Of a DNA stretch of 22,259 nucleotides, positions 2,550 through 21,883 are shown piece after piece. The DNA comes from a virus: IMG/VR virus record IMGVR_UViG_3300000101_006642, positions 1-22,259 of that record; one strand, given 5' to 3'. A model generated the notes under the pieces. The model had not been told where the DNA came from, made no database searches, and saw nothing but the letters and a program-made list of their open reading frames with translations. The translations under genes were made by a program, and so were the position numbers. Within the stretch, counting starts at the first letter, position 1; each line of letters starts with the position of its first letter.

Positions 2550-3460
2550 AATATTTTTTTAGTTTGTAACATTTTTATCCCTTTATCTAAAAACTGTTGC
2601 ATATTTGATTCAAATACTTTTCTTTGATTTGGTTGATCTTTAAAAACCATTAAATCTTTATATATCTGAGTATAACCCTCATCTATTAAGGGGCCATTAG
2701 GATAATCAAATATAGTTTGACCACGCAAAACATATTGATTAAAGTCTACACCTTTAGTTTTTACATAATCTGTTAACATTAAAGAATACCAATCATGTGG
2801 ACCATATCCTTTCCAATCATCATGAATAGGACATAAATTTTCATAAAATTCTTTATTATATAAATCAAACCACCCTGCCCATTTAGATTTATAAGTTTGA
2901 TCTAATGTAATATCTCTTTGTTGAAGTTTATTTTTAGCTCTAATATCAAACACATCTACTTTATTCCAATCTTCATACGGAACGTCTAAATAATCTTTAT
3001 CAGTAATTTCATCCCATGTTTGATCCCATAATTTATGAATCTCTGGGGTAATGACAAAATATTTATTTTTAATTTGCTTAGAACTTGCAATCATTGAAGC
3101 AAGTAACTGTTCACCAAAGTACATATCAGGACAAATATGAATATAAAAATCAACTTCAGATGAAATAGCTTCTCGTTGATGGTCTAAATGTCCATACAAT
3201 TCATCCCCTTCATATATTTGAGCAGTAACTTTATAATCTTTTAATAATTTTAGGTATTGATTAAATCTACTTTTTAATAAATCTTTTGATAACTTACTTT
3301 TTTCCCAATCAAATATATATGAAGATAAATTTAATACAGGATTAATTTCAATATTATCCTCTCCTGAAAGATAATATTTTGATTTTTTTAATTGGGTAAA
3401 GGTTTGCAGACAATAGTCTAATTCCCAACCCATAGCATGGTAAGTAATTTTATAATTCAT
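2546..3460 (-). CDS. Unknown protein, possibly a GT-A-type glycosyltransferase
   Basis: I do not recognise this 304-aa protein with certainty. It has no signal peptide or membrane segment. A hydrophobic strand ending in acidic residues, VDFYIHICPDMYF (103-115), looks like the DxD-type strand of GT-A glycosyltransferases, and a later GYGPHDWYS motif (near residues 219-227) resembles the acceptor-side G-[FY]-G-x-[ED]-D motif seen in several GT-A families. It is rich in Tyr, Trp and Asp, which is common for carbohydrate enzymes. It sits between two SDR genes, overlapping the upstream one by 11 bases and the downstream one by 4. The glycosyltransferase reading is inference. Confidence 0.45.
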   Translation of the reverse strand: MNYKITYHAMGWELDYCLQTFTQLKKSKYYLSGEDNIEINPVLNLSSYIFDWEKSKLSKDLLKSRFNQYLKLLKDYKVTAQIYEGDELYGHLDHQREAISSEVDFYIHICPDMYFGEQLLASMIASSKQIKNKYFVITPEIHKLWDQTWDEITDKDYLDVPYEDWNKVDVFDIRAKNKLQQRDITLDQTYKSKWAGWFDLYNKEFYENLCPIHDDWKGYGPHDWYSLMLTDYVKTKGVDFNQYVLRGQTIFDYPNGPLIDEGYTQIYKDLMVFKDQPNQRKVFESNMQQFLDKGIKMLQTKKIL

Positions 3461-4268
3461 TATATAACTCTTTTATACCTTTTTCTAGTCCAATAAAATT
3501 TAAATTTGGATCTAAACTTGAAATATTTTTAACAGCACTTCCCAAATAAGATTTATCTCTATTTCCAGATTGTATTTGTATTTGATTTAAACCAGGAAAT
3601 AATTCCGCTATATTTGATAGTTTGTTTTTAGTAGGATATACTAGATCTAATTCTAAGGGAAGTAATTCTTTTTTAGCCGTTAAATAATGTTTTACAACTA
3701 AAATTAAATCTTTTATATAAATAAAATCAAAATATCTATCTTGATGAATTTCTATGGGCTCTTTATTTTTAGCTTTTAAAATATTACTTTTAAAAAATCT
3801 ATCAGGTTCTTCATCTATTCCAAACACACCAAAAATCCTAAGATTATAATCTGTAGAATTATTTTTAACTAATCTACTAATTATATTTTTAGATAAACCA
3901 TAACAGTCTAATGGGAAATAATTATTTACATCATTATCACCTGTAATGTCTTTAGATCTATCAAATTCTGCTCCTGTAGAAAAATTAATTAATTTATTAT
4001 ATCTATCTCTATTTCTCATTAAATTAAAAAACATAGATAAATTTTTATAAGTAATATCTAAAGAATCTTCTTTTATTCTTTTACCTCCCTTAATAGCACA
4101 GTGTATTACCCAATCAAAATATTTAGTTCTAAAATAATTATCAACTGATTCCGAATTGGTTAAATCTAATTCTTTACTATTAGGAAAAAAAACTTCATGA
4201 TCTTCTTTAAGAGATTTTATTAAGTTTCTACCTACAAAACCATTACCACCTGTGATTAATATTTTCAT
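3450..4268 (-). CDS. NAD-dependent epimerase/reductase (extended SDR)
   Basis: This 272-aa protein is an extended SDR. It has TGGNGFVG (6-13), a Ser-Thr catalytic segment NFSTGAEF (95-102) and a YxxxK pair Tyr123/Lys127 (CYGLSK). The FDFIYIKDL segment near residues 181-189 is the typical substrate-domain strand of nucleotide-sugar epimerases and reductases. Its ATG overlaps the stop of the E1-beta-like gene by a single base (TAATG), suggesting translational coupling. Next to the ThDP enzyme genes, it is a natural candidate for reducing a keto group on a modified nucleotide sugar, as YerF does in the yersiniose pathway; that role is inferred from position only. Confidence 0.8.
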   Translation of the reverse strand: MKILITGGNGFVGRNLIKSLKEDHEVFFPNSKELDLTNSESVDNYFRTKYFDWVIHCAIKGGKRIKEDSLDITYKNLSMFFNLMRNRDRYNKLINFSTGAEFDRSKDITGDNDVNNYFPLDCYGLSKNIISRLVKNNSTDYNLRIFGVFGIDEEPDRFFKSNILKAKNKEPIEIHQDRYFDFIYIKDLILVVKHYLTAKKELLPLELDLVYPTKNKLSNIAELFPGLNQIQIQSGNRDKSYLGSAVKNISSLDPNLNFIGLEKGIKELYNEL

Positions 4269-4804
4269 TATTTTGTTTTACAAAAATCAGCAAATTCAAC
4301 TAATATAGTACTTACCCCATCTTCTCTATTTAATGCTTTTTTATATGCTGGAACTATATCTTCAGGTTCAAATAATTGTACTATTTCTATATTATTAGTC
4401 ATCTGTTTAAATGCAGTTGAAAAATTACCCTTATGTTGACATTGTGGATCAACAGGATATTCACTACCTACAGCTACTCTAATAATAACTTTTGGTGTAC
4501 ATTCACCTTCTGACATTGAAGAAAATTTATCCAAGTGATTTACAATTTGATCAACCCCCATTAATAAAAAATTCCATCTAGGAAAAGTAGATACGGGTAT
4601 CATTCCTTCAATAGCCATACCATTAGCTAAACCACATTGAAAATATTCTGCCACAGGCAATTCTAATCTTTTTTCTTTTGGTATATGTTTTAAACTATCA
4701 TACAGACCTGTTCCTTCATATTCCACAGCTTGACCTATAAAATGTGTTTTTGGGTTATCAGCTAATAAACTCATAGCCTTTACTATTTCATCTATATATT
4801 TCAT
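4268..4804 (-). CDS. Thiamine-diphosphate enzyme, pyrimidine-binding subunit (E1-beta/transketolase-like, minimal)
   Basis: The 178-aa product is the Pyr domain of a ThDP enzyme of the 2-oxoacid dehydrogenase E1/transketolase type. The conserved motif is clear: LPVAEYFQCGLANGMAIEG (49-67) with Glu53 at the position of the catalytic Glu that activates the aminopyrimidine ring, followed by GVDQIVNHL (93-101), which matches the E1-beta DQI-N signature. Normal E1-beta subunits are about 325 aa because they carry a C-terminal transketolase domain of about 130 aa; here it is absent and the protein ends after the Pyr domain. It directly follows the PP-domain gene with no gap, so the two almost certainly form one enzyme. 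The substrate is unknown. Confidence 0.8.
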   Translation of the reverse strand: MKYIDEIVKAMSLLADNPKTHFIGQAVEYEGTGLYDSLKHIPKEKRLELPVAEYFQCGLANGMAIEGMIPVSTFPRWNFLLMGVDQIVNHLDKFSSMSEGECTPKVIIRVAVGSEYPVDPQCQHKGNFSTAFKQMTNNIEIVQLFEPEDIVPAYKKALNREDGVSTILVEFADFCKTK

Positions 4805-5437
4805 CTAAAATTGTACTCGTTGCCCGGCACCTGCGTGTGGGTATTTTTGGTTATCATATTGATAATAATATAAGTGAGGTAATTTTAATATCCCACCTGT
4901 ATATTCGTTATTTTCTAAAAAATAGGGTAAATTTCTCCCCCATATTTTATCTGTAGGTGTGCATACAGATTTTCTATTATCTTCAATTACAAAAGTGATA
5001 GGTAAATTATGATTTAAACTATACTTATACGCTTCATGAAAAGCACCTGTTTCAGCACTCATATCACCTACCCAACACCATACTCTATTATCTGTATTTT
5101 TTATTTTAATTGCTAAAGCAATACCAGTAGCTATAGAAGGTATACCTCCTACAATTGAACTACATATAAATTTATATTTGGGAAGATTCATTACCATAGA
5201 CTTACCAGATAATATTTTTGATCTTAGTAATTCTGGGGGTATTCCTTTAAGTAAACCTTGATAATGGTTTCTCCAAGTACAACATATCCAATCATTTTTT
5301 ATATCAATATCTTTAAAAACATCAATAACATGGTCCTCATTACCCGAGTATAGATGAACAGGAGCTTTAATTTTCCCTTCATTAAAAAGATCTCCTATTT
5401 CTTTTTCAAATGCTATTAAATAATTTTTGCTTACCAT
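4805..5437 (-). CDS. Thiamine-diphosphate enzyme, diphosphate-binding subunit (E1-alpha-like, minimal)
   Basis: The 210-aa protein is the PP domain of a ThDP enzyme resembling pyruvate dehydrogenase E1-alpha. The ThDP/Mg motif begins GDM at 124-126 (canonical GDG, with Met in the third place) and ends at Asn154, the right spacing; between them GAFHEAY (131-137) and LPITFVIEDN (145-154) fit E1-alpha well. The earlier segment TWRNHYQGLLKG (54-65) corresponds to the E1-alpha Y-R-x-H-G region and SIVGGIPSIATG (94-105) to its G-I-V-G-x-x-x-P-x-A-x-G region. Family members are usually 320-360 aa, so the C-terminal third is missing. It overlaps the upstream dehydratase gene by 7 bases and abuts the Pyr-domain gene. 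Confidence 0.82.
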   Translation of the reverse strand: MVSKNYLIAFEKEIGDLFNEGKIKAPVHLYSGNEDHVIDVFKDIDIKNDWICCTWRNHYQGLLKGIPPELLRSKILSGKSMVMNLPKYKFICSSIVGGIPSIATGIALAIKIKNTDNRVWCWVGDMSAETGAFHEAYKYSLNHNLPITFVIEDNRKSVCTPTDKIWGRNLPYFLENNEYTGGILKLPHLYYYQYDNQKYPHAGAGQRVQF

Positions 5438-6423
5438 ATAAAGTTATTTTTATAATAGTTAACAATTTTCCATAATTCTTCTTCAAAATTCTTTTGAGGT
5501 TCCCAACCTAAATTTCTTAATTTATCATCATTTAAAGCATATCTTACATCTTGCCCTTGTCTAGAATAAGAAAAGTCTAAATATTGGTTTTTATCTAATC
5601 TGTATTCTGGGATATTATATATTCTTTCTTCATCATAAAAATATGTGTCTAGTATTTTTTCAATTGTTGTTAAGTTTGATTGCTCATAACCCCCACATAT
5701 ATTATAAATTTCATTCTTTTGGCTAGTTTCAATAATGTTAATTACAGCTTCTGCTGTATCGGCGGCATGTAACCAATTACGTATTGGATCTCCATTATTA
5801 TGTAATGGTATTCTTTTATTTAATTCTAGATATTTTATTGATTTAGGAATAAGTTTTTCAACATATTGGCCTATACCATAATTGTTAGTTGGTCTTATTA
5901 TTACATATTCTATATTATATGTTCTTGCCCAAGCTAAAATTAATTGGTCAGCAGCTGCTTTTGTTGCTGAATAAGGATTTGAGGGTTTTAGAATATCGGT
6001 TTCTAAATGTTCTCCTTCTGTTATATCACCATAAACTTCATCTGTTGAAAAATGAAAAAATAAAGGACTAGCTTTACCTTCAGCTCTATAATTTCTAATT
6101 AATTCTAATAAATTATGAACTCCATTTATATTTGAATGAACAAAATCTTCACTTTTAACTATTGAATTACCAACATGAGTTTCGGCAGCAGTATTAATAA
6201 CATAATCACATTCATATAAAAATTCTAAATCATTAATATCAACTTGTTCAAAAGTAAATCTTTTATTTTTTTCAAATTCTTTTAATAATTGAGGGTTAGA
6301 TGCATAAGTAATTTTATCTATACCTCTTACATACCAACCTTGTTCTAAACATGCTCTAGTTACATAAGAACCTATAAAACCTAGGCAACCTGTTATATAA
6401 ACTATTTTATTTTCTCTTTGCAT
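5431..6423 (-). CDS. dTDP-glucose 4,6-dehydratase-like SDR
   Basis: The protein resembles RmlB-type nucleotide-sugar 4,6-dehydratases, which turn an NDP-hexose into the 4-keto-6-deoxy sugar. Starting at the ATG at 6423 gives 330 aa and places the Rossmann motif TGCLGFIG at residues 11-18, as in the family; an in-frame ATG at 6465 would add 14 residues lying inside the upstream gene. Catalytic Thr-Asp-Glu is at 127-129 (STDEVYGD), the residues that set dehydratases apart from simple epimerases, and YxxxK is Tyr151/Lys155 (PYSATK). A RPTNNYG motif follows. The usual second Gly-Ala of the Rossmann motif is Cys-Leu. It sits directly after the His-type DegT enzyme (17-base overlap); together they could make a 3,6-dideoxy-4-keto sugar. 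Confidence 0.82.
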   Translation of the reverse strand: MQRENKIVYITGCLGFIGSYVTRACLEQGWYVRGIDKITYASNPQLLKEFEKNKRFTFEQVDINDLEFLYECDYVINTAAETHVGNSIVKSEDFVHSNINGVHNLLELIRNYRAEGKASPLFFHFSTDEVYGDITEGEHLETDILKPSNPYSATKAAADQLILAWARTYNIEYVIIRPTNNYGIGQYVEKLIPKSIKYLELNKRIPLHNNGDPIRNWLHAADTAEAVINIIETSQKNEIYNICGGYEQSNLTTIEKILDTYFYDEERIYNIPEYRLDKNQYLDFSYSRQGQDVRYALNDDKLRNLGWEPQKNFEEELWKIVNYYKNNFIW

Positions 6424-7567
6424 CAAAAAATTCTTTAATTTTATTACAAACGTAATCAACGTCATCTAACCCCATTCCATGGTGAGCTCCTAGTAAAAAA
6501 CCATTTTTCATTACTATATCTGCTACTTCAAAATCTTGTAAATATTCTCTATAAATTGGGTGGCGAGTAACATTACCCGCAAATGTAACTCTTGTTTGAA
6601 TATTACTATCTTCTAAAAAACGTAATAATTCTAGTCTATTTTCAGTTTGTAATGGTATAGCTAACCAATTTGGCTTAATACTATCATCAGGTAAAACTAA
6701 TTCTTTTACATCTTTTAAATTTTCTAAATAACGTTCTATATTAGCACGTCTTATATCTTTAAATGATTGAAATCTTTCTAATTGAACTAATCCAAAAGCA
6801 GCGTTAGCTTCAGCACATTTCATATTATATCCTAAAACACCATATAAAAATTTATAATCATAAGGTAAACCATCAACATTATGTGTAAATCTTTCATCCA
6901 TGTTTTCACTATTATCTCCAATTCTTCCCCAATCACGAAACATTAATGCTCTTTTTTTATGTTCTTCATTATTAAACATTACCATACCACCCATTCCACC
7001 AGCAGTTATAACATGAGAAGCATAAAAACTAGTTGTTGAAACATCCGAACATTCTGTATATGTAATAGTATCCGCTGAATCTTCTATTATTGGTATATGT
7101 TCCATACCCATTCTCATTAATTCATTTCTTAATGTATCAAAATCGGGTTTATTACCTATTAAGTTAGGTATCATTATAGCTCTAGTTTTATTAGTAATCG
7201 CATCACAAATAGATTGAACACTAGGCACATAAGTTGTTAATTCTGAATCAATAAATTTAGGAACATAACCTAACTGTATAATAGGAGCTAATGTTGTAGA
7301 AAAAGTTAAAGCAGGAGTAATTACTTCTGAACCTTTTTCTAAATCTAAAGAAGCTAAAGCTAATAAACATGCTGATGAACCCGAATTAACGAACACACCA
7401 TATTTTTTACCAAATTCTTTAGCTATTTTCTGTTCAAATTCAGTAGTACGAGGACCAAATCCAGCTAACCACCCATCTCTAAGTGATTCTTCTACTGCTT
7501 TTATTTCTGCATCCCCATATGATTCAAATTTATAAGGAGCATACCATACTTTTTTTCTATTACTCAT
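6407..7567 (-). CDS. DegT/DnrJ/EryC1-fold PLP enzyme of the sugar 3-dehydratase type (ColD/RfbH-like)
   Basis: The 386-aa protein has the sugar aminotransferase fold: NSGSSACLLAL (61-71), TPALTFSTTLAPI (84-96) and IIEDSAD (160-166), where the Asp pairs with the PLP pyridine. The usual PLP-binding lysine motif reads SFYASHVIT (180-188), so His185 stands where aminotransferases have Lys. This exchange marks the 3-dehydratases ColD (GDP-4-keto-6-deoxymannose) and RfbH/E1 (CDP sugars). The later RDWGR, GLPYDYK and GYN segments look more like RfbH, but the four Fe-S cysteines of RfbH are not apparent and the length (386) is that of ColD (388). I infer removal of the sugar C3 hydroxyl; the nucleotide carrier is undecided. 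Overlaps of 4 and 17 bases tie it to its neighbours. Confidence 0.8.
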   Translation of the reverse strand: MSNRKKVWYAPYKFESYGDAEIKAVEESLRDGWLAGFGPRTTEFEQKIAKEFGKKYGVFVNSGSSACLLALASLDLEKGSEVITPALTFSTTLAPIIQLGYVPKFIDSELTTYVPSVQSICDAITNKTRAIMIPNLIGNKPDFDTLRNELMRMGMEHIPIIEDSADTITYTECSDVSTTSFYASHVITAGGMGGMVMFNNEEHKKRALMFRDWGRIGDNSENMDERFTHNVDGLPYDYKFLYGVLGYNMKCAEANAAFGLVQLERFQSFKDIRRANIERYLENLKDVKELVLPDDSIKPNWLAIPLQTENRLELLRFLEDSNIQTRVTFAGNVTRHPIYREYLQDFEVADIVMKNGFLLGAHHGMGLDDVDYVCNKIKEFFDAKRK

Positions 7568-8091
7568 GTTGTTATTATTAATTGTGTTGTATCAGAAGCT
7601 TTAGCTTTTAAAAATTTGTAATTTGCATTTTTATTTAAAAAATTTACTTCTAATAATTCTAAATCATACGACATTTCTACAAATTCTAAATCATCTATTA
7701 TAACTGTATGGTTATCTATTTCATGATTTAATATATGTTCTATTTCGTGTTTAATTGGACTTTCATACCCATTGCGATGAGCATCTAACCAAAATAAAGC
7801 TGGTCTATTAACTTTTTGGAGTAGTTCGGGCATCATAATAGATGAATCTCCTTTATACAAATATAATTCGGGAGTTTCTGTTGGCCTTGGCCCCCATATA
7901 TCTAAAGGCATAAATCTTTTATAGCTTTCATCAAAAAAATGAGGTTCAATTTCTACTGAAATAATTGTTTCAAATCCTAAATCAATAGCGTCTTGAACAG
8001 AATCACCCATATAAGTCCCTGTTTCAAAAAAAATCCTATGTGAAGGTTTTTTATGATCACTAAATAATTCTTTATACGGCCAATATCCCAT
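7564..8091 (-). CDS. Methyltransferase-like protein (class I Rossmann fold)
   Basis: The 175-aa product looks like a small class I SAM-dependent methyltransferase or a relative. A glycine-containing motif I equivalent, FFETGTYMGDS (21-31), is followed by IISVEIEPHFF (43-53), where the acidic residue after the second strand would bind the SAM ribose, then KGDSSIMMPELL and ALFWLDAHR, which resemble motifs seen in sugar-cluster methyltransferases of the Methyltransf_24/FkbM type. It overlaps the GT10-like gene by 20 bases upstream and the DegT-type gene by 4 downstream. A role in O-methylating a sugar is inferred from context. Confidence 0.6.
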   Translation of the reverse strand: MGYWPYKELFSDHKKPSHRIFFETGTYMGDSVQDAIDLGFETIISVEIEPHFFDESYKRFMPLDIWGPRPTETPELYLYKGDSSIMMPELLQKVNRPALFWLDAHRNGYESPIKHEIEHILNHEIDNHTVIIDDLEFVEMSYDLELLEVNFLNKNANYKFLKAKASDTTQLIITT

Positions 8092-8893
8092 TATGTTTAA
8101 AAATATTAGTTATTTCGTTGACTATATTCTGCTCGTAATCTACGAACTTTAAAGCACGATTCCAATTATCTTCAATAGCTTCTTTTTTATCCATATAAAA
8201 AGCTCTATTTAATTTATTAGATTGGTGTATAATATCATCAACATTGTTTACTTGTATTACTCCATCCAAATTAAAAAAGTCTCCTATATTAGAACAACCC
8301 CAATAAATTGGAATTGATCTTAATAAAAATAAATCTAATATTTTCTCTGTAAAATACCCTCTATGATTTGTGTTCTCAATTGCGACGGCAAACATGTTTT
8401 TTCCAAATACATCCATTTTGCCCTGTCTAGCATTATTAATATCGTGTCTATCTCCATACGTGTGATAAAAATTTGTTTCTACTTTATTTATTTCTTTTTC
8501 TCTAGCTAATAATTCATGTCTTAAACTATGACCATAAGTTTTATTTAATTTTCCTGCTAGATGTGAAATTTTAAATTCTTTATGTGTTTTTAACTTATAA
8601 TCATTGGGTTTAAACCAAGTATGCCCAAATGGTAAAAATGATGAATTATCTGTATTATTTAATACTTTATCATCCCAAGTTAATATAAATGAAAAATAAT
8701 GACTGTTTTCAATAGCCCAATTATGTAATCCAAAATATTCATCTGGTTCCTGTAAAACTAAAACATTAATTTCTGATAGATCTTCTTGACTTGTGGGAAT
8801 ATCATCTACAAATAAAGTAAATTCAATATCTTTTAAATGTTCCATTTTTTTCTCAAAAACAGAAGCATCAAAATGTTTTATTTTTAGTTTCAT
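8072..8893 (-). CDS. GT10-type fucosyltransferase-like glycosyltransferase
   Basis: I choose the ATG at 8893, which gives a 273-aa protein and a 4-base ATGA overlap with the gmd stop; an upstream in-frame ATG at 8908 lies inside gmd. The C-terminal half carries the GT10 donor-binding signature: FAVAIENTNHRGYFTEKIL (168-186) followed by SIPIYWGCSNIGDFF, matching the family pattern E-N-x(5)-Y-x-T-E-K ... [VI]-P-[IV]-x-x-G. GT10 enzymes transfer L-fucose from GDP-fucose, typically alpha-1,3 or 1,4. The adjoining gmd- and fcl-like genes would supply this donor. No membrane anchor is visible. Acceptor and exact donor (fucose or a related GDP-deoxysugar) are unknown. Confidence 0.78.
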   Translation of the reverse strand: MKLKIKHFDASVFEKKMEHLKDIEFTLFVDDIPTSQEDLSEINVLVLQEPDEYFGLHNWAIENSHYFSFILTWDDKVLNNTDNSSFLPFGHTWFKPNDYKLKTHKEFKISHLAGKLNKTYGHSLRHELLAREKEINKVETNFYHTYGDRHDINNARQGKMDVFGKNMFAVAIENTNHRGYFTEKILDLFLLRSIPIYWGCSNIGDFFNLDGVIQVNNVDDIIHQSNKLNRAFYMDKKEAIEDNWNRALKFVDYEQNIVNEITNIFKHNGILAV

Positions 8894-9861
8894 AATATCT
8901 CTACCCAATAATTAATCATTTCATCAATCATTGTTTCAAATGTATAATCAGGTTTCCAACCTAATTTTCTCAATTTAGTTGAATCTCCTTTTAAATCCCT
9001 TAATTCTTCAGGACGTAAAAATTTTGGATCCGTTTTAATATACTGTTTCCAATCTAAATCTAATTTATTAAAAGTATATTCGACTAAATCCTTAACTGAA
9101 TGTGATACACCAGTAGAACATACAAAATTATCAGGTTTATCTTGTTGTAACATTAACCACATTGCTTTAACATAATCTTTAGCATGCCCCCAATCACGAG
9201 TAGCATCTAAATTACCTAATGTTAAATCTTGTTTTATACCTTTTTTAATTTGTACAGCACCTTTTACTACTTTATTAGTTACAAAATTAGTCCCACGTCT
9301 AGGTGATTCATGATTAAAAAGTATCCCATTTGAAATAAATAAATTATATGAATTTTTATAATTATTACAAATATTATAAGAATATACTTTTGCACAACCA
9401 TAAGGAGATACTGGTGATAAAGGTGTAGTTTCTCTCTGATATCCGTCTTTGTCAATATTATTACCAAACATTTCACTACTTGATGCTTGATACATTTTTA
9501 TTTTAGGATCTGTTAATCTTATTGCCTCAAGTAAATTAAGCGTACCTATACCAGTAGCTTGTGCTGTGTATATTGGTTGATCGAATGAGATTCTAACGTG
9601 TGATTGCGCTGCTAAATTATAAATTTCGCATGGTTTACTTTGTTGTATAACTGATATTAATGAAGATAAATCGGTTAAATCTGCATATTGCAATTTACCT
9701 AATAATTGAGGGTAAATTTCATCTAATCTAGATGTTTGATTTTCAGCTACAGAATTACGTTTAATTGTACCCCATACTTCATATCCTTTTTCTAATAAAA
9801 ATTCGGCTAAATATGACCCATCTTGACCATTAATTCCCGTTATTAATGCTGTTTTTTTCAT
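8890..9861 (-). CDS. gmd: GDP-mannose 4,6-dehydratase
   Basis: The 323-aa protein is a clear GMD. It has the diagnostic TGINGQDGSYLAEFL (8-22), LAAQSHVRISFDQP (83-96), catalytic SSSEMFG (127-133) and the YxxxK pair Tyr154/Lys158 (PYGCAK), then NHESPRRG, typical of the GDP-binding region. It converts GDP-D-mannose to GDP-4-keto-6-deoxymannose, the branch point to GDP-fucose, GDP-colitose, GDP-rhamnose and GDP-perosamine. Slightly shorter than most bacterial GMDs (about 345-370). It overlaps the methyltransferase gene before it and the GT10 gene after it by 4 bases each, so the three are probably co-translated. Confidence 0.93.
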   Translation of the reverse strand: MKKTALITGINGQDGSYLAEFLLEKGYEVWGTIKRNSVAENQTSRLDEIYPQLLGKLQYADLTDLSSLISVIQQSKPCEIYNLAAQSHVRISFDQPIYTAQATGIGTLNLLEAIRLTDPKIKMYQASSSEMFGNNIDKDGYQRETTPLSPVSPYGCAKVYSYNICNNYKNSYNLFISNGILFNHESPRRGTNFVTNKVVKGAVQIKKGIKQDLTLGNLDATRDWGHAKDYVKAMWLMLQQDKPDNFVCSTGVSHSVKDLVEYTFNKLDLDWKQYIKTDPKFLRPEELRDLKGDSTKLRKLGWKPDYTFETMIDEMINYWVEIL

Positions 9862-10706
9862 TTATTGCTTGCTTTTCCTGCATTAATATAAATCCAATGT
9901 GGGTGATTATCACCTGGACCTGTTGGTCCTATAATATAATTAAAACTTGCAAAACCTGCTGCTTCTAATGATTTTTTTAATTGAATAGGATGGCTTACTT
10001 CAACATCAAAAGCTCTATTAGTACCAGGAGCATCATAAAAATTTTCATAATAATCTACTGATGATATTGCTGGTGATCCATATCCCATTTGAAAACAAAG
10101 CACACCCCCCTCATTTAATACTCTATAAAATTCACTAAAATAACTTTGTCTAATATCATGAACACATATATGTTGTAATGCTACAGTACTCATTACAATA
10201 TTATATGAATTATCTGGTATAGCACTTAAAGAAATACCATCACAAGTATATAGATTTGAATTAGTAATTCCATTTTTATCAATATACTTTTTAGCATTTC
10301 TAATGTTATTTTCACTTATATCAACTCCATCAATTTGTTTAAATTTATCTTTATATTTAACAATATTTCTCCCAGGTCCACAAGCAAAATCTAAAACTTT
10401 ACACTCATGTAATGGAAATCCTCCTAATCTACAAAATAAAAATTCATAATCCCACCAGGTATTATGTTGATCAAAACTACCTACTACATTATCAACCTCA
10501 ACACCGTCCCCAGTTGCTGCTGCTTCTTCATAATAAAGTTTCTGCATTTTAGTATAAACATTATCAGGACTTGGAGGGTTTAATTTTGGATCATCTAAAA
10601 TCATTTCTGCTGCAGCACCATCATCTCTTTTAATCTCAGCTAATTGATTAGACATTACTACCTTTCTACTTTTTTTCTTTGATTTTTTACGTCCTAGCTC
10701 TTTCAT
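9858..10706 (-). CDS. SAM-dependent methyltransferase (class I)
   Basis: The 282-aa protein has a textbook class I methyltransferase core: motif I VLDFACGPGRN (104-114), then IDGVDISENNI with the ribose-binding Asp, a YTCDG segment, and NIVMSTVALQHI, followed by FYRVLNEGGVLCFQMG. Methyltransf_11/25-type enzymes look like this. The first 17 residues are Lys/Arg-rich; an internal ATG at 10655 is preceded by AGAAAGG and could be the true start (265 aa), so the N-terminus is uncertain. The longer form overlaps the fcl-like stop by 20 bases. Lying between the two GDP-fucose pathway genes, it may O-methylate the resulting sugar; this is inference. Confidence 0.82.
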   Translation of the reverse strand: MKELGRKKSKKKSRKVVMSNQLAEIKRDDGAAAEMILDDPKLNPPSPDNVYTKMQKLYYEEAAATGDGVEVDNVVGSFDQHNTWWDYEFLFCRLGGFPLHECKVLDFACGPGRNIVKYKDKFKQIDGVDISENNIRNAKKYIDKNGITNSNLYTCDGISLSAIPDNSYNIVMSTVALQHICVHDIRQSYFSEFYRVLNEGGVLCFQMGYGSPAISSVDYYENFYDAPGTNRAFDVEVSHPIQLKKSLEAAGFASFNYIIGPTGPGDNHPHWIYINAGKASNK

Positions 10707-11589
10707 AATTTTCTATAAACCAATTAACTGTTTCTTTAATTCCTTGCTCAAATGAAGTATATTTAAAATTAGGCATTAATTCTTTAATTTTTGAATTATC
10801 TGATGGTTTTTTGTATTGCCCATCGGGTTTTGTAGAATCAAATATTACATTACCCTTAAAATTAAATTCTTGAACTAATAAATCAACTAAATCTTTAATA
10901 CTAACTTCTTCATCTCCGCTTATTATTAATGGATCAGTACCTTCATAATTTTCTAAAACCCATTGAGATATTTTAGCTATATCTTTGGAATATATGAATT
11001 CTCTTAACGGTTTCCCACTACCCCATACAGTAAAGTCTGTATTGTTTTTCTTAGCTAAATATAACTTATGAATTAACATAGGCATTACATGACCATGATC
11101 TAAATTAAAGTTATCATTTGGACCATAAATGTTAGATGGAATTATTGATGTATAATTTAAACCATACTGTTCTCTATAAGCCCTAATTTGAACATCAGCC
11201 ATTCTTTTAGCATAAGCATAAGGATAATTTGAACTATGAGGCTCACCTGTATGGATTTGGTCTATTGTTAATGGATAACTTACGTTATCAGGAAACACAC
11301 AAGTAGATAAGTATGCTACTAAACGTTTTACACCTGATAATCTAGCTGCCTCTATTACATTGGTATTAATAAGTAAATTTTTATAAAAATATTCACCTTT
11401 AAAATTAGAGTTTCCTCCTATACCTCCTACTTTACCAGCACAGTGTATTATACCTTCTGGTTGTAGTTTTTTAAAGGTGTATTCAGTTCTTTCTCTATTG
11501 GTTAAATCGCAATCTTCTCTTGATAAATGAATATCTGCATCTATAGCACTACCTACCATTCCATGGCCACCTGTAACTAATATTTTCAT
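10687..11589 (-). CDS. fcl: GDP-L-fucose synthase-like epimerase/reductase
   Basis: The 300-aa protein resembles GDP-fucose synthase (Fcl/WcaG), which epimerises C3/C5 of GDP-4-keto-6-deoxymannose and reduces C4. It shows TGGHGMVGSAI (6-16), STCVFP (95-100) carrying the catalytic Ser/Thr and the active-site Cys97, the YxxxK pair Tyr124/Lys128 (PYAYAK), and NIYGPNDNF with a following HGHVMP, where the second catalytic acid/base His lies. All key residues are present. Because a ColD-like 3-dehydratase is also in the cluster, the paralogous function ColC (making GDP-L-colitose) cannot be ruled out by eye. Confidence 0.88.
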   Translation of the reverse strand: MKILVTGGHGMVGSAIDADIHLSREDCDLTNRERTEYTFKKLQPEGIIHCAGKVGGIGGNSNFKGEYFYKNLLINTNVIEAARLSGVKRLVAYLSTCVFPDNVSYPLTIDQIHTGEPHSSNYPYAYAKRMADVQIRAYREQYGLNYTSIIPSNIYGPNDNFNLDHGHVMPMLIHKLYLAKKNNTDFTVWGSGKPLREFIYSKDIAKISQWVLENYEGTDPLIISGDEEVSIKDLVDLLVQEFNFKGNVIFDSTKPDGQYKKPSDNSKIKELMPNFKYTSFEQGIKETVNWFIENYERART

Positions 11590-12221
11590 ATTGTTGAATA
11601 AAATAAATTTTGTTGTCTTTGTCTATCTATATTCTTTATGTGATATAAAGCATAAGAATCATCATCTGCTGGTAATTCAGCGTAGGTCTTCCATCCAACT
11701 ATTTGCTCATGGACTTTGTTGACCCATTTTATTTCAGGTTTATTTCTAAATATTCTATGTTGATTATCGGGCCAATTTACCCAACCATGCTCATTTAATT
11801 GCCATCTCCATTCAAGAACATCTTTTTGTTCTAATCCTTCAACAATATTAACACGGGGTATAGCTATTAAATCAACTTCTTCATTTGATTCTAGAACTTC
11901 ATGGATTACTCTACAAAAAGTTTCACTTAAAGTTTCATCTGCATCAATCTGGAATATCCAATCTTTAGTACAGTAGGATTTTAAATTATTTTTAAATGAT
12001 CCAAAATCATTGTTTAATTCAAAAAAACATCTTTTTACAAGAAAATTTGATTTATTTTTATCAACAAAACCATCAACTAAAGATATTACCTCTATTGTTG
12101 CCTTACTATCCAATTGGATAATAATTTCATCTGTAGGTTTAACGATTTTAATTATTTGATTTAATAACCTATCTAATTCTTCATGCTCATTATAAGCAGT
12201 AATAGCAAAACTTATTCCCAT
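11586..12221 (-). CDS. GT2 family glycosyltransferase
   Basis: The 211-aa protein is a short GT-A fold glycosyltransferase of family 2. It opens ISFAITAYNEHEELDRLL (3-20), the family's nucleotide-binding start, continues with DEIIIQLDS (31-39), and has the metal-binding DxD as Asp93-Ala-Asp95 in FQIDADETLS (90-99). A HRIFRNKPEIKWVNKVHEQI stretch near the C-terminus is typical of WaaE/KdtX-like GT2 enzymes that act on LPS core. No membrane segments, so a soluble or peripheral enzyme. It overlaps the fcl-like gene by 4 bases. Confidence 0.85.
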   Translation of the reverse strand: MGISFAITAYNEHEELDRLLNQIIKIVKPTDEIIIQLDSKATIEVISLVDGFVDKNKSNFLVKRCFFELNNDFGSFKNNLKSYCTKDWIFQIDADETLSETFCRVIHEVLESNEEVDLIAIPRVNIVEGLEQKDVLEWRWQLNEHGWVNWPDNQHRIFRNKPEIKWVNKVHEQIVGWKTYAELPADDDSYALYHIKNIDRQRQQNLFYSTI

Positions 12222-12224
12222 AAT

Positions 12225-12683
12225 TTAAGATTCAAAAAAACCAATATATTCTAAAGCATCCATAAAATCTTCTTGTTTAAAATTTTTCATAGTTTTCATA
12301 TCAGTTTTATGTTTATAATAATCATCAGTTCCAGGAATTTTGAATTTTTCCTTTTCTTCTTCTTTTACATCTGTTACTTTAACTCCTGTCCATTCCCATG
12401 TTTTCCAATCTTTCCCATTAACAAAAACAGTTCCTTTATCTGGGATGTTAATTGAAGTAGGGTACCATACTCTTCCTAATTCATCTCCAACTTTAAGATC
12501 TTTATAAATTTCCGGAAGGGTTTCTTCATATTGTGAGAAATCAAATTCACCTTGAATCATTAAATCATTAGTTGTAAATCCACATCCAAAGCAAAAATAG
12601 TTTTTAACCTGTGGATTTAGTTCTGTGGTGTAACAAGCGTCACCACCACACTTCATACAAAGTTCTAAATTATCTTTAGTCAT
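12225..12683 (-). CDS. Zinc-ribbon hypothetical protein
   Basis: The 152-aa protein has an N-terminal zinc ribbon: Cys9-x2-Cys12, an extra Cys17, and Cys31-x2-Cys34 in the pattern CMKCGG ... CFGCGF. Similar small zinc ribbons begin many T4-like marine phage proteins. The rest (about 45-152) is acidic and Trp/Lys-rich, with no recognised domain. It lies inside the glycan cluster, 3 bases from the GT2 gene and overlapping the GT4 gene upstream by 8 bases, yet does not look like a sugar enzyme. Function unknown; nucleic-acid or protein binding is plausible. Confidence 0.7.
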   Translation of the reverse strand: MTKDNLELCMKCGGDACYTTELNPQVKNYFCFGCGFTTNDLMIQGEFDFSQYEETLPEIYKDLKVGDELGRVWYPTSINIPDKGTVFVNGKDWKTWEWTGVKVTDVKEEEKEKFKIPGTDDYYKHKTDMKTMKNFKQEDFMDALEYIGFFES

Positions 12684-19944: not shown

Positions 19945-21588
19945 TTACATCATTCCCGCCATCGGGTTTGGTGTTTCTTCTTTATCCTCTCTTTTTTCAT
20001 ATATAACTGATTCAGTAGTGAGGATAGTTCCAGCTATTGAAGCAGCATTTTCTAAAGCAATACGTGTAACTTTTTTAGGATCAATTATACCTAAACTTTT
20101 AAAGTCTACTATAGCTAAATCTTTATAATCTAACCCTTTCCACGTATTATTTTTAGCATTTAACAAATTATAGGATGCAAATCTTACATTATTTTCTTCG
20201 TGCCCTGCATTTGTTAAGATTTTAACAAAAGGTTCTTGAATTGCTTGTTCAACAATATTTTTACCTATCATTATATCTGGGTTCTTAGATAAAAATGATT
20301 TAAGTCTTTTAGAAGCTTGTAACAAAGCAACTCCACCTCCAGCTATAATACCTTCGTCTAGAGCAGCTTTAGTAGCAAATAAAGCATCTTCAACTCTATC
20401 TTTTTTCTCTTTAATTTCTATTTCTGAATTACCACCTACATTAATAATAGCTACTCCACCAACTAATTTACCTAGTCTGTCTTGTAGTTTTTCTTTTTCA
20501 AATGCAGATGAAGCTTTATCTAATTGAATTTTAATTTCTTCAGCTTTTTGAGAAATAGCTTCTTCAGAACCTTTACCATCTACTACTGTAGTTTTTTCTT
20601 TAGAAACATTTACAGTTCTGGCTTTTCCTAGTAATTCATTAAATTGTAAAAGTTGTAATTTTTCTAATTTATGTCCTTTATCTTTAGAAATTACTTGCCC
20701 ACCTGTTACTGTTGCTAAATCTTCTAAAGCCATTGTTCTTCTATCACCAAAATCAGGTGCTTTAACGGCAACAACATCAATAGTACCTCTCATTTTATTA
20801 ACAATTAAGGTAGCTAATGCTTCCCCGTCAATATCTTCGGCAACTATTAATAGTGATTTTGATTCACCACTTACTTTATTTAAAACATTAAGTAATTCAG
20901 ATGCTTGTGTTATACGTCCATCATATATTAAAATATAAGGATCATTTAATACAGCTGACATTGTATCGTTATCAGTAACAAAATAAGGTGATTTATAACC
21001 TCTATCAAATTGCATACCTTCAACTACTTCTAATGAAGTATCACCAGATTTAGATTCTTCTATAGCTACAACTCCATCTCTACCTACTTTATCTAAAGCA
21101 GTAGAAATTAAATTACCTATTTCTGTATCATTATTACCTGATATTGTTGCAACTTCTTTAATTTGTGCATCATCTGTAATTTCAGTTGATTTATCTTTTA
21201 ATTCTTCTACAACAGCAGCAACTGCTTGATCAATACCTTTTTTAATATCTACAGGATTAGAACCATCATTAATAGTTTTAATACCTTCCTCTAACATAGT
21301 AGCAGCTAGTAAAGTAGATGTTGTTGTTCCATCCCCTACTTCATTAGCAGATTTAATAGATACTTTTTTAGCTAATTCAGCTCCTATTGATTCGGTTTGA
21401 TCTTCTAATTCATTAAAGGCTCTGGCTACAGTTACACCATCTTTAGTGACTTTAATTTCACCCATTTGGTCTTTGATTAATACTGTTCTACCAGCTGGCC
21501 CTAGTGTAGAAACCACACTATTATTTAACTTTTGAACTCCCTCTAAAAGTTTGTTTTTTAATTCCTTTCCAAAACTTGTTTCTGTCAT
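19945..21588 (-). CDS. groEL: Chaperonin GroEL (phage-encoded)
   Basis: The 547-aa protein is a complete group I chaperonin. ATP-site motifs are intact: [11 protein letters not shown] (28-38), KDGVTVA (49-55, Asp50), [13 protein letters not shown] (84-96, Asp86, equivalent to catalytic Asp87 of E. coli), and the equatorial [19 protein letters not shown] with the Asp equivalent to Asp398. Length is normal. The tail ends PNPMAGMM, lacking the extended Gly-Gly-Met repeats of most bacterial GroELs. It works with the GroES directly upstream (1-base gap), so the phage brings its own folding chamber, where T4 brings only the cochaperonin gp31 and uses host GroEL. A likely client is the major capsid protein. 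Confidence 0.95.
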
Positions 21589-21589
21589 G

Positions 21590-21883
21590 TTATTCTTCTA
21601 AAATTGATAAAATTGAACTTTGAGCTGTGATGTAATATTCTTCTCCATCTACAGTAACTGTTTGAGCCCCCATTTTTGGAATTAAAACTTTCATACCTTC
21701 TTTTAAGGTATTAGGTACATACTCACCTGTATTAAAATTATAAACTGAAGAAATAGCTACTATTTCTCCCATTTCTGGTTTTTCTTTTCCCATATCAGGG
21801 ATAATAATATTACCTGACATCATTTCCTGTTCTTCTACAGGACGTAGTATAACATTACCATTTACTGGTTTTAATTTACTCAT
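21590..21883 (-). CDS. groES: Cochaperonin GroES (phage-encoded)
   Basis: The 97-aa protein is a GroES/Cpn10. It opens KPVNGNVILRPVEEQE (5-20), followed by the mobile loop MMSGNIIIPDMGKEKPEMGEI, where SGNIIIPD corresponds to the GroEL-binding G-G-I-x-L tripeptide region, and ends with the GMKVLIPKMGAQ dome-base strand and EEYYITAQSSILSIL. Length matches cellular GroES. It starts in a 4-base overlap with the 93-aa gene and is 1 base from groEL, a standard groESL order within the early part of this transcript. Confidence 0.93.
   Translation of the reverse strand: MSKLKPVNGNVILRPVEEQEMMSGNIIIPDMGKEKPEMGEIVAISSVYNFNTGEYVPNTLKEGMKVLIPKMGAQTVTVDGEEYYITAQSSILSILEE

Follow-up and report, generated by a model that had tools for sequence, protein, structure and literature searches.

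The E1-like PP/Pyr gene pair

The window analyzed here, the whole 22,259-base stretch of virus record IMGVR_UViG_3300000101_006642, carries on its minus strand two abutting open reading frames (ORFs) that together encode 388 amino acids (aa). This PP/Pyr pair, a candidate thiamine diphosphate (ThDP) enzyme related to the E1 component of 2-oxoacid dehydrogenases, lies within a deoxysugar cassette, and in sister phage cassettes its slot is occupied by ThDP enzymes of two other types. The two genes are:

4805..5437, minus strand: PP-domain subunit (mini E1-alpha), 210 aa; cofactor motif GD124-125 and N154; H28, R56 and H201 at E1-alpha active-site positions
4268..4804, minus strand: Pyr-domain subunit (mini E1-beta), 178 aa; carries the ThDP-activating Glu53, and His124 at the place of E1-beta His128

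Both genes stood as an earlier sequence-only reading of this DNA had listed them, and the profile searches which it had proposed as a check matched both proteins. The PP match to Pfam E1_dh (PF00676), at 3.1e-16, covers positions 7-171 of a 300-position profile, and thus the C-terminal part of E1-alpha is missing; Transket_pyr (PF02779) at 1.2e-7 was the sole Pfam match of Pyr, and the same search found no Transketolase_C in this protein. Both halves were nearest to E1 by sequence. The E1-alpha PP and E1-beta Pyr domains of a classic E1 are present with cofactor and catalytic residues, and the E1-alpha C-terminal region and the beta-subunit Transketolase_C are absent; at 210 and 178 aa the pair does not have the dimensions of a full-length alpha/beta enzyme (~325/345 aa, as for Pau11/12). 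No PF02776 match was detected in the window; the single acetohydroxyacid synthase (AHAS)-type chain (TPP_enzyme_N/M/C) of a YerE-like carboligase was therefore not found there. PP and Pyr also matched opposite ends of phrog_34187, a fused protein family of unknown function (PP at 1.7e-43, positions 11-179; Pyr at 1.1e-23, positions 237-396).

For each subunit, 82 sequences reduced to 64 distinct ones, over which residue conservation was counted. The cofactor motif and Glu53 to which the sequence-only reading had pointed were upheld: G124, D125 and H201 of PP were found in 64/64 sequences, N154, H28 and R56 in 63/64, and E53 and H124 of Pyr in 64/64. PDB profile alignments, in which residue positions were counted by hand, place Pyr E53 at Glu59 and H124 at His128 of the human E1-beta chain; in human E1-alpha, the counterpart of PP H28 is the His of the GFCHLCDGQE segment. 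We take all of these to be catalytic residues. Taken together, the sequence comparisons confirmed the pair as a real E1-derived ThDP unit, from which both C-terminal parts are gone and in which the predicted cofactor and catalytic residues are retained.

Fold searches were performed with monomer models only. The model of the window PP protein (mean pLDDT, the predicted local distance difference test score, 88.6; low at residues 201-210) aligned through its residues 1-209 with residues 35-269 (of ~362) of human E1-alpha (199 residues, Z 18.8). H201 would fall about at E1-alpha His263, as judged from rows pairing residue 199 with 261. A natural PP-Pyr fusion (L193, mean pLDDT 86.9) resembled E1-beta 1w85_B in its Pyr part (Z 21.3) and transketolase over its whole length (354 residues, Z 19.1). 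Since the monomer models keep the E1-alpha, E1-beta and transketolase folds, the core two-domain arrangement is predicted to be retained despite the missing parts. The sequence-only reading had named a model in which the ThDP site could not form as evidence against itself, and these monomer models instead kept their folds.

Conservation of the pair in viral loci

Viral contigs were scanned for PP relatives, which gave 77 loci (78 including the window, 58 after dereplication). A Pyr ORF adjoined PP in 77/77 viral loci, one PP and one Pyr being cut by contig ends, and Pyr was the next gene after PP in 58/58 dereplicated loci. Given this constant adjacency and the conserved residues, the pair is not a product of chance; chance or degenerate ORFs were rejected on the same grounds, the catalytic residues being kept over the 64 distinct sequences.

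Other arrangements were also observed. In the 735-kilobase (kb) phage record LR756501, Pyr (10388-10918) lies upstream of PP (11962-12606) at a distance of ~1 kb, the order being reversed. In one phage locus (L172:5482-7205, minus strand), a DegT relative adjoins an E1-like pair whose members differ in size (a 276-aa alpha-like and a 306-aa beta-like protein). Another (L017) carries two pairs, the second belonging to the cellular type and accompanied by a ColD-like enzyme of its own.

The sugar cassette

Three further genes on the minus strand surround the pair:

3450..4268, minus strand: short-chain dehydrogenase/reductase (SDR), proposed to reduce the branched ketone in a YerF-like role
5431..6465, minus strand: RmlB-like nucleoside diphosphate (NDP)-hexose 4,6-dehydratase, TIGR01181 304 bits (cut-off 365); the ORF start was assigned mechanically, and the true start may lie downstream
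6407..7567, minus strand: DegT-fold enzyme with His for the catalytic Lys, NDP-4-keto-6-deoxyhexose 3-dehydratase type

These genes recur with the pair. Near it in the 58 dereplicated loci were found an RmlB-like dehydratase (55/58), SDR clusters (44/58 and 7/58), RfbH (36/58) and the window-type DegT enzyme (10/58), and the 41 pair loci with good flanks included 40 with the dehydratase, 38 with a DegT relative and 39 with the SDR. The catalytic Lys was replaced by His in 60/60 distinct DegT proteins near pairs, and a His-type 3-dehydratase was present in 48/58 pair loci. The sugar context proposed by the sequence-only reading was thus borne out by the 4,6-dehydratase and 3-dehydratase counts.

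The window DegT enzyme was closest to the Yersinia CDP-4-keto-6-deoxyglucose 3-dehydrase (197 bits), followed by ColD (142 bits) and aminotransferases (99 bits); it is without the Fe-S cysteines of RfbH and in that respect is ColD-like. A phage RfbH scored 463.6 against NCBIfam RfbH (cut-off 423), and its nearest structures are those of the Yersinia CDP-4-keto-6-deoxyglucose 3-dehydrase. A fixed-last-spacing Fe-S motif matched just 30/54 RfbH proteins; this pattern was wrong, because four cysteines, with spacings of 57, 1 and 11 in the RfbH of L008, emerged as conserved when alignment columns were compared. The window dehydratase scored 66 bits with TIGR02622 compared to 304 bits with TIGR01181, and its best solved relatives are dTDP-glucose enzymes. 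A compact version of the cassette (L173) consists of RfbH, PP, Pyr, SDR and dehydratase genes with overlaps of a few bases each. In the window and sister loci, a His-for-Lys 3-dehydratase has a 4,6-dehydratase and an SDR as neighbors, as in a yersiniose-type cluster, and by this analogy the cassette is considered to follow the logic of yersiniose synthesis.

Pair loci were compared to 74 control loci without the pair, anchored on gmd (best 80 of 367 matches, minus 6 with the pair). The RmlB-like dehydratase was found in 56/58 pair loci versus 11/74 controls, RfbH above 400 bits in 37/58 versus 8/74, and an SDR above 100 bits in 53/58 versus 4/74. The His-type DegT enzyme was rejected as a specific marker of the pair, being found in 48/58 pair loci and also in 40/74 controls (Fisher 7e-4).

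Three ThDP enzyme types in one slot

The exchange of three ThDP superfamilies in a single slot was the surprising part of the analysis and is its strongest evidence. To the phage RfbH of L008, a contig with both the E1 pair and an AHAS-type enzyme, 144 matches were obtained, and the best 80 (63 after dereplication, near-duplicate contigs being included in the 80) served as an RfbH-anchored set. Exactly one of three ThDP kinds was found in 64 of these 80 loci, namely the AHAS/YerE type only in 35, a mini-transketolase pair only in 18 and the mini-E1 pair only in 11; E1 and AHAS types occurred together in 1 locus, and 15 had none. Within the fetched flanks, two kinds per RfbH locus were observed in 1/80 compared to 13.8 expected by shuffling, and in 1/63 compared to 10.6 expected after dereplication.

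The AHAS-type module is one chain, ~580-590 aa long, in which the TPP_enzyme N, M and C domains are combined. Among solved structures it is closest to 8rph (396 bits, against 265 for the runner-up), which is JanthE, a characterized YerE-like ketone-accepting enzyme. The third module, a second two-gene pair, is a truncated transketolase (Transketolase_N plus Transket_pyr, 204-212 plus 158 aa, no C-terminal domain), as exemplified by L117:4014-5107, for which no PHROG match was obtained at 1e-5. A set of 64 loci was anchored on the single phage protein from L117. The two genes were adjacent in 63/64 loci, and among the 50 with good flanks the dehydratase was found in 46, RfbH or DegT in 43 and the SDR in 48, with an E1 pair in 0 and the AHAS type in 0. 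The exact gene order of the window, with the transketolase pair replacing the E1 pair, was seen in 11/64 loci.

Two ThDP module kinds were observed in or near one cassette at L008, L013, L019, L044, L062, L045 and L148; such loci perhaps make two branched sugars or one that is doubly modified.

Precision and frequency of the exchange

Near-identical cassette genes were found to flank different ThDP modules, with identities of 96% for the dehydratase (L032 versus L366) and 99.8% for RfbH (L042 versus L156). For L032 and L366, DNA similarity stops at the dehydratase stop codon (10002/1032) and resumes at the SDR start (11169/2117), and similarity breaks likewise at the dehydratase end and SDR start for L014 versus L388 and L015 versus L110. 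The breaks for L042 versus L156 lie ~70 and ~135 bases inside the neighboring genes. The window and L407 are similar (~72%) through the DegT and dehydratase genes as far as position 5432; similarity (~68%) resumes at 4274, the SDR start.

FastTree trees of RfbH (83 rows) and the dehydratase (104 rows) were used to count changes in module kind. Four loci with two kinds each (L008, L013, L019 and L148) were omitted; L044, L045 and L062 (two kinds) and L100 (the same contig as L008) stayed in the trees, labeled E1. The minimum number of changes in module kind is 22 for the RfbH tree and 20 for the dehydratase tree; if only well-supported branches are counted, the E1 label still requires at least 9 and at least 8 changes, respectively. 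Judged by these DNA and tree comparisons, module exchange is recent and precise.

Relatives of the pair

In a tree built from 100 PP rows, all 58 split sequences of viral origin fell into a single clade (support 99). Its neighbors were cellular split sequences of marine and groundwater lineages, and the fused form stood apart. A DegT relative directly adjoins the pair in 6 cellular loci, among at least 23. Cellular split pairs (L178-L184, L199) were observed near ColD-like His-DegT enzymes. Near cellular pairs, a GHMP kinase related to HddA (below cut-off, L180) and a radical SAM protein (L183) were also seen, and L179 and L181 carry putative flagellin genes. A plasmid search for close relatives gave remote matches only, with ~27-36% identity among the matches listed, mostly annotated as E1 subunits.

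Fused PP-Pyr relatives of ~400 aa were found in L280-L349 and in cyanophages S-SM2 (L002:11971-13179) and P-TIM68 (L003). These proteins and phrog_34187 are like the window pair in being a homologous PP-Pyr unit in the same order; the S-SM2 and P-TIM68 proteins, annotated 'transketolase central region', differ from it in forming one chain, a sister clade and different neighborhoods. The cassette of the fused form has a Zn alcohol dehydrogenase directly upstream in 64/69 loci and a PfkB kinase in 66/70.

Proposed function of the pair

Based on sequence and gene context, we consider it quite probable that the pair is a minimal E1-type ThDP carboligase for a branched dideoxysugar; our confidence is lower for the donor and the position of the branch. 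The YerE-like role suggested by the sequence-only reading is favored by the sister cassettes, in which this slot is filled by an enzyme of the JanthE/YerE type. In the yersiniose pathway, the acceptor for branching is a C4 ketone without the 3-hydroxyl (3-OH). By the scheme proposed here, the RmlB-like 4,6-dehydratase would first form an NDP-4-keto-6-deoxyhexose, probably dTDP-linked, from which the 3-OH would be taken off by the DegT enzyme of His type, which is RfbH in most phages and ColD-like in the window. PP/Pyr would then decarboxylate a 2-oxoacid, most likely pyruvate, and transfer the two-carbon unit to the C4 ketone to give a tertiary alcohol, and the ketone on the branch would be reduced by the SDR. 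A 4-C-branched 3,6-dideoxyhexose akin to yersiniose would result, for a phage-directed glycan. Gene content and order, residue conservation, the modeled folds and the module exchange are direct observations of this analysis, whereas we infer the substrates, the donor, the branch position, the order of the last two steps, an E1-like alpha2beta2 assembly and the destination of the sugar.

The swapping of three unrelated ThDP types, two of them reduced to a two-gene core of two domains, at gene borders, repeatedly and in one slot, may further mean that one keto sugar receives different branches, a donor swap that diversifies glycans; we lean slightly toward this view. An E1 or YerE module would give an acetyl-type branch and a transketolase module a hydroxyacetyl-type branch.

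Several observations weigh against the carboligase scheme or limit its reach. The sequence-only reading had proposed testing whether homologues always neighbor 3-dehydratase or 4,6-dehydratase genes; this held for the 48/58 and 55/58 loci noted above, and failed as a rule in that 10/58 pair loci, three of them >17 kb, have no His-DegT enzyme. The His-type DegT enzyme is by itself unspecific, given its presence in the 40 control loci, and the dehydratase is RmlB-like rather than of the CDP-glucose type of yersiniose synthesis. RfbH, dehydratase and SDR also co-occur without the pair: among RfbH-anchored loci, the dehydratase was found in 12/12 with and 56/68 without the pair, and the SDR in 10/12 and 49/68. 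Of the 15/80 RfbH loci without a ThDP module, 8 have >3.8 kb of sequence downstream (the other 7 have <2 kb). Exclusivity is not absolute, since 5/57 pair loci also have the AHAS type and 1/57 also the transketolase type, and L100, counted as pair-only, is the same contig as L008, which holds both kinds. JanthE, the comparison enzyme, has no established natural or physiological substrate, and the fused relative of the pair has other neighbors, an alcohol dehydrogenase and a PfkB kinase.

Among the alternatives, a two-carbon transferase of other geometry, acting at C3 or on a sugar that has been transferred beforehand, or using another donor than pyruvate, is possible and in our view rather unlikely. 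The literature describes known E1-type enzymes that branch at C3 or C4 (PMC12247030), avilamycin and paulomycin proposals that act on already attached sugars (PMC4425429) and a YerE-like enzyme, ErwE, that takes longer donors (PMC12247030). Against such a geometry, the adjoining 3-dehydratase favors a C4 ketone that has lost its 3-OH, as in yersiniose.

It is improbable that the pair is a mini-transketolase in function, moving a ketol unit between sugar phosphates as for a heptose precursor. The fused relative is modeled with a transketolase-like fold along its entire chain, the annotation of the S-SM2 and P-TIM68 proteins agrees with this, and the PfkB kinase neighboring the fused form is related to heptose-7-phosphate kinase. 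By contrast, the split form of the window is nearest E1 in both halves and keeps the E1-position histidines, its cassette has dehydratases and no heptose genes, and a separate, true transketolase-type mini pair replaces the E1 pair in sister phages; the two types are therefore distinct. A transketolase function for the window pair was rejected on this separate pair and on its E1-type sequence.

Very improbable, finally, is a remnant or truncated 2-oxoacid dehydrogenase E1 with no carboligase role, serving as acyl donor to E2 or as a plain decarboxylase: the E1 ancestry of both subunits would fit, but the E2 catalytic domain (PF00198) was detected in 0 of the 32 records searched, many of them fragmentary, both sizes and all catalytic residues are kept across dozens of phages, and pairs of the viral set always lie in glycan cassettes. 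The classic E1 role was rejected on the same search, in agreement with the sequence-only reading, which had held a classic oxoacid dehydrogenase unlikely and would have yielded to homologues found with E2. The carboligase reading instead matches E1-type (alpha-KADH2) enzymes in its two E1-like subunits and deoxysugar cluster, with no E2 found in those 32 records.

Relation to known systems

Sulfopyruvate decarboxylase (ComD/ComE) is a two-chain minimal ThDP enzyme. It appears in the ThDP family list of PMC2831816.

The sequence-only reading had presented the pair as a new two-subunit architecture for branched-sugar synthesis. It is not, because E1-type alpha/beta sugar-branching enzymes are known in antibiotic clusters: AviB1/AviB2, Pau11/Pau12 (Plm8/Plm9) and KbDH-alpha/beta are published pairs adding a two-carbon branch (PMC4753412, PMC4425429, PMC4802897, PMC12247030), and EvdU5/EvdS3 has been put forward as an E1-type sugar-branching enzyme as a hypothesis (PMC10338323). 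E1-type transfer of a two-carbon unit from pyruvate to a keto sugar has been proposed or shown by gene inactivation, and KbDH acts in vitro on ketones (PMC4753412, PMC4425429, PMC4802897, PMC10338323, PMC12247030). With AviB1/B2, Pau11/12, EvdU5/EvdS3 and KbDH the phage pair shares two subunits related to the alpha and beta subunits of pyruvate dehydrogenase E1. This group belongs to bacterial antibiotic pathways and is full length where sizes were seen (Pau11 325 aa, Pau12 345 aa; PMC4425429), whereas the phage pair of 210 + 178 aa has no C-terminal regions, a 3-dehydratase neighbor and a location in viral glycan clusters. YerE and JanthE have the same proposed reaction as the pair and the same slot in sister phage cassettes, but are single AHAS-type chains unrelated to E1 at the family level. 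The split-gene transketolases of the miharamycin and amipurimycin clusters, for which ketone-accepting sugar branching is proposed and unproven (PMC12247030), are like the phage mini-transketolase in the slot; the window pair differs from them in being of the E1 type.

A 2025 review (PMC12247030) places ketone acceptors in three of nine ThDP superfamilies, the decarboxylase, E1 and transketolase types. It states that there is no structure for the ketone-accepting E1 or transketolase types, regards the transketolase function as unproven and suggests that viruses may hold unexplored orthologues. The phage cassettes hold these three types in one slot with one presumed substrate, so that a direct side-by-side comparison is possible.

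Searches of the literature on phage branched-chain sugars with thiamine or transketolase, on cyanophage transketolase and lipopolysaccharide, and on RfbH or dideoxyhexoses, within mostly open-access papers, turned up no description of the phage cassette; the bare 388-aa form, the phage 3,6-dideoxy context and the three-superfamily swap were likewise not found in these searches. The kind of enzyme is already known, and what is new is its truncation, its carriage by viruses and its exchange with two other ThDP types. If the proposed function is true, a role could be assigned to phrog_34187, so far a PHROG family of unknown function, viruses would make C-branched deoxysugars, and the pair may rank with the smallest ThDP carboligases that accept ketones.

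Other genes of the window

The window also contains T4-type clamp-loader genes and several glycosyltransferases. A GT10 fucosyltransferase-like protein (8072-8908), a GDP-mannose 4,6-dehydratase (8890-9861) and a GDP-fucose-synthase-like SDR (10687-11589) were observed, and a GDP-fucose route is likely, on sequence, to be encoded beside the branched-sugar cassette. Genes for phage GroEL (547 aa) and GroES (97 aa) lie at 19945-21883. At the opposite end, cut by the window edge, a HAD hydrolase is fused to a nucleotidyltransferase domain (3-1055); the HAD/nucleotidyltransferase cluster was found near the pair in 7/58 loci.

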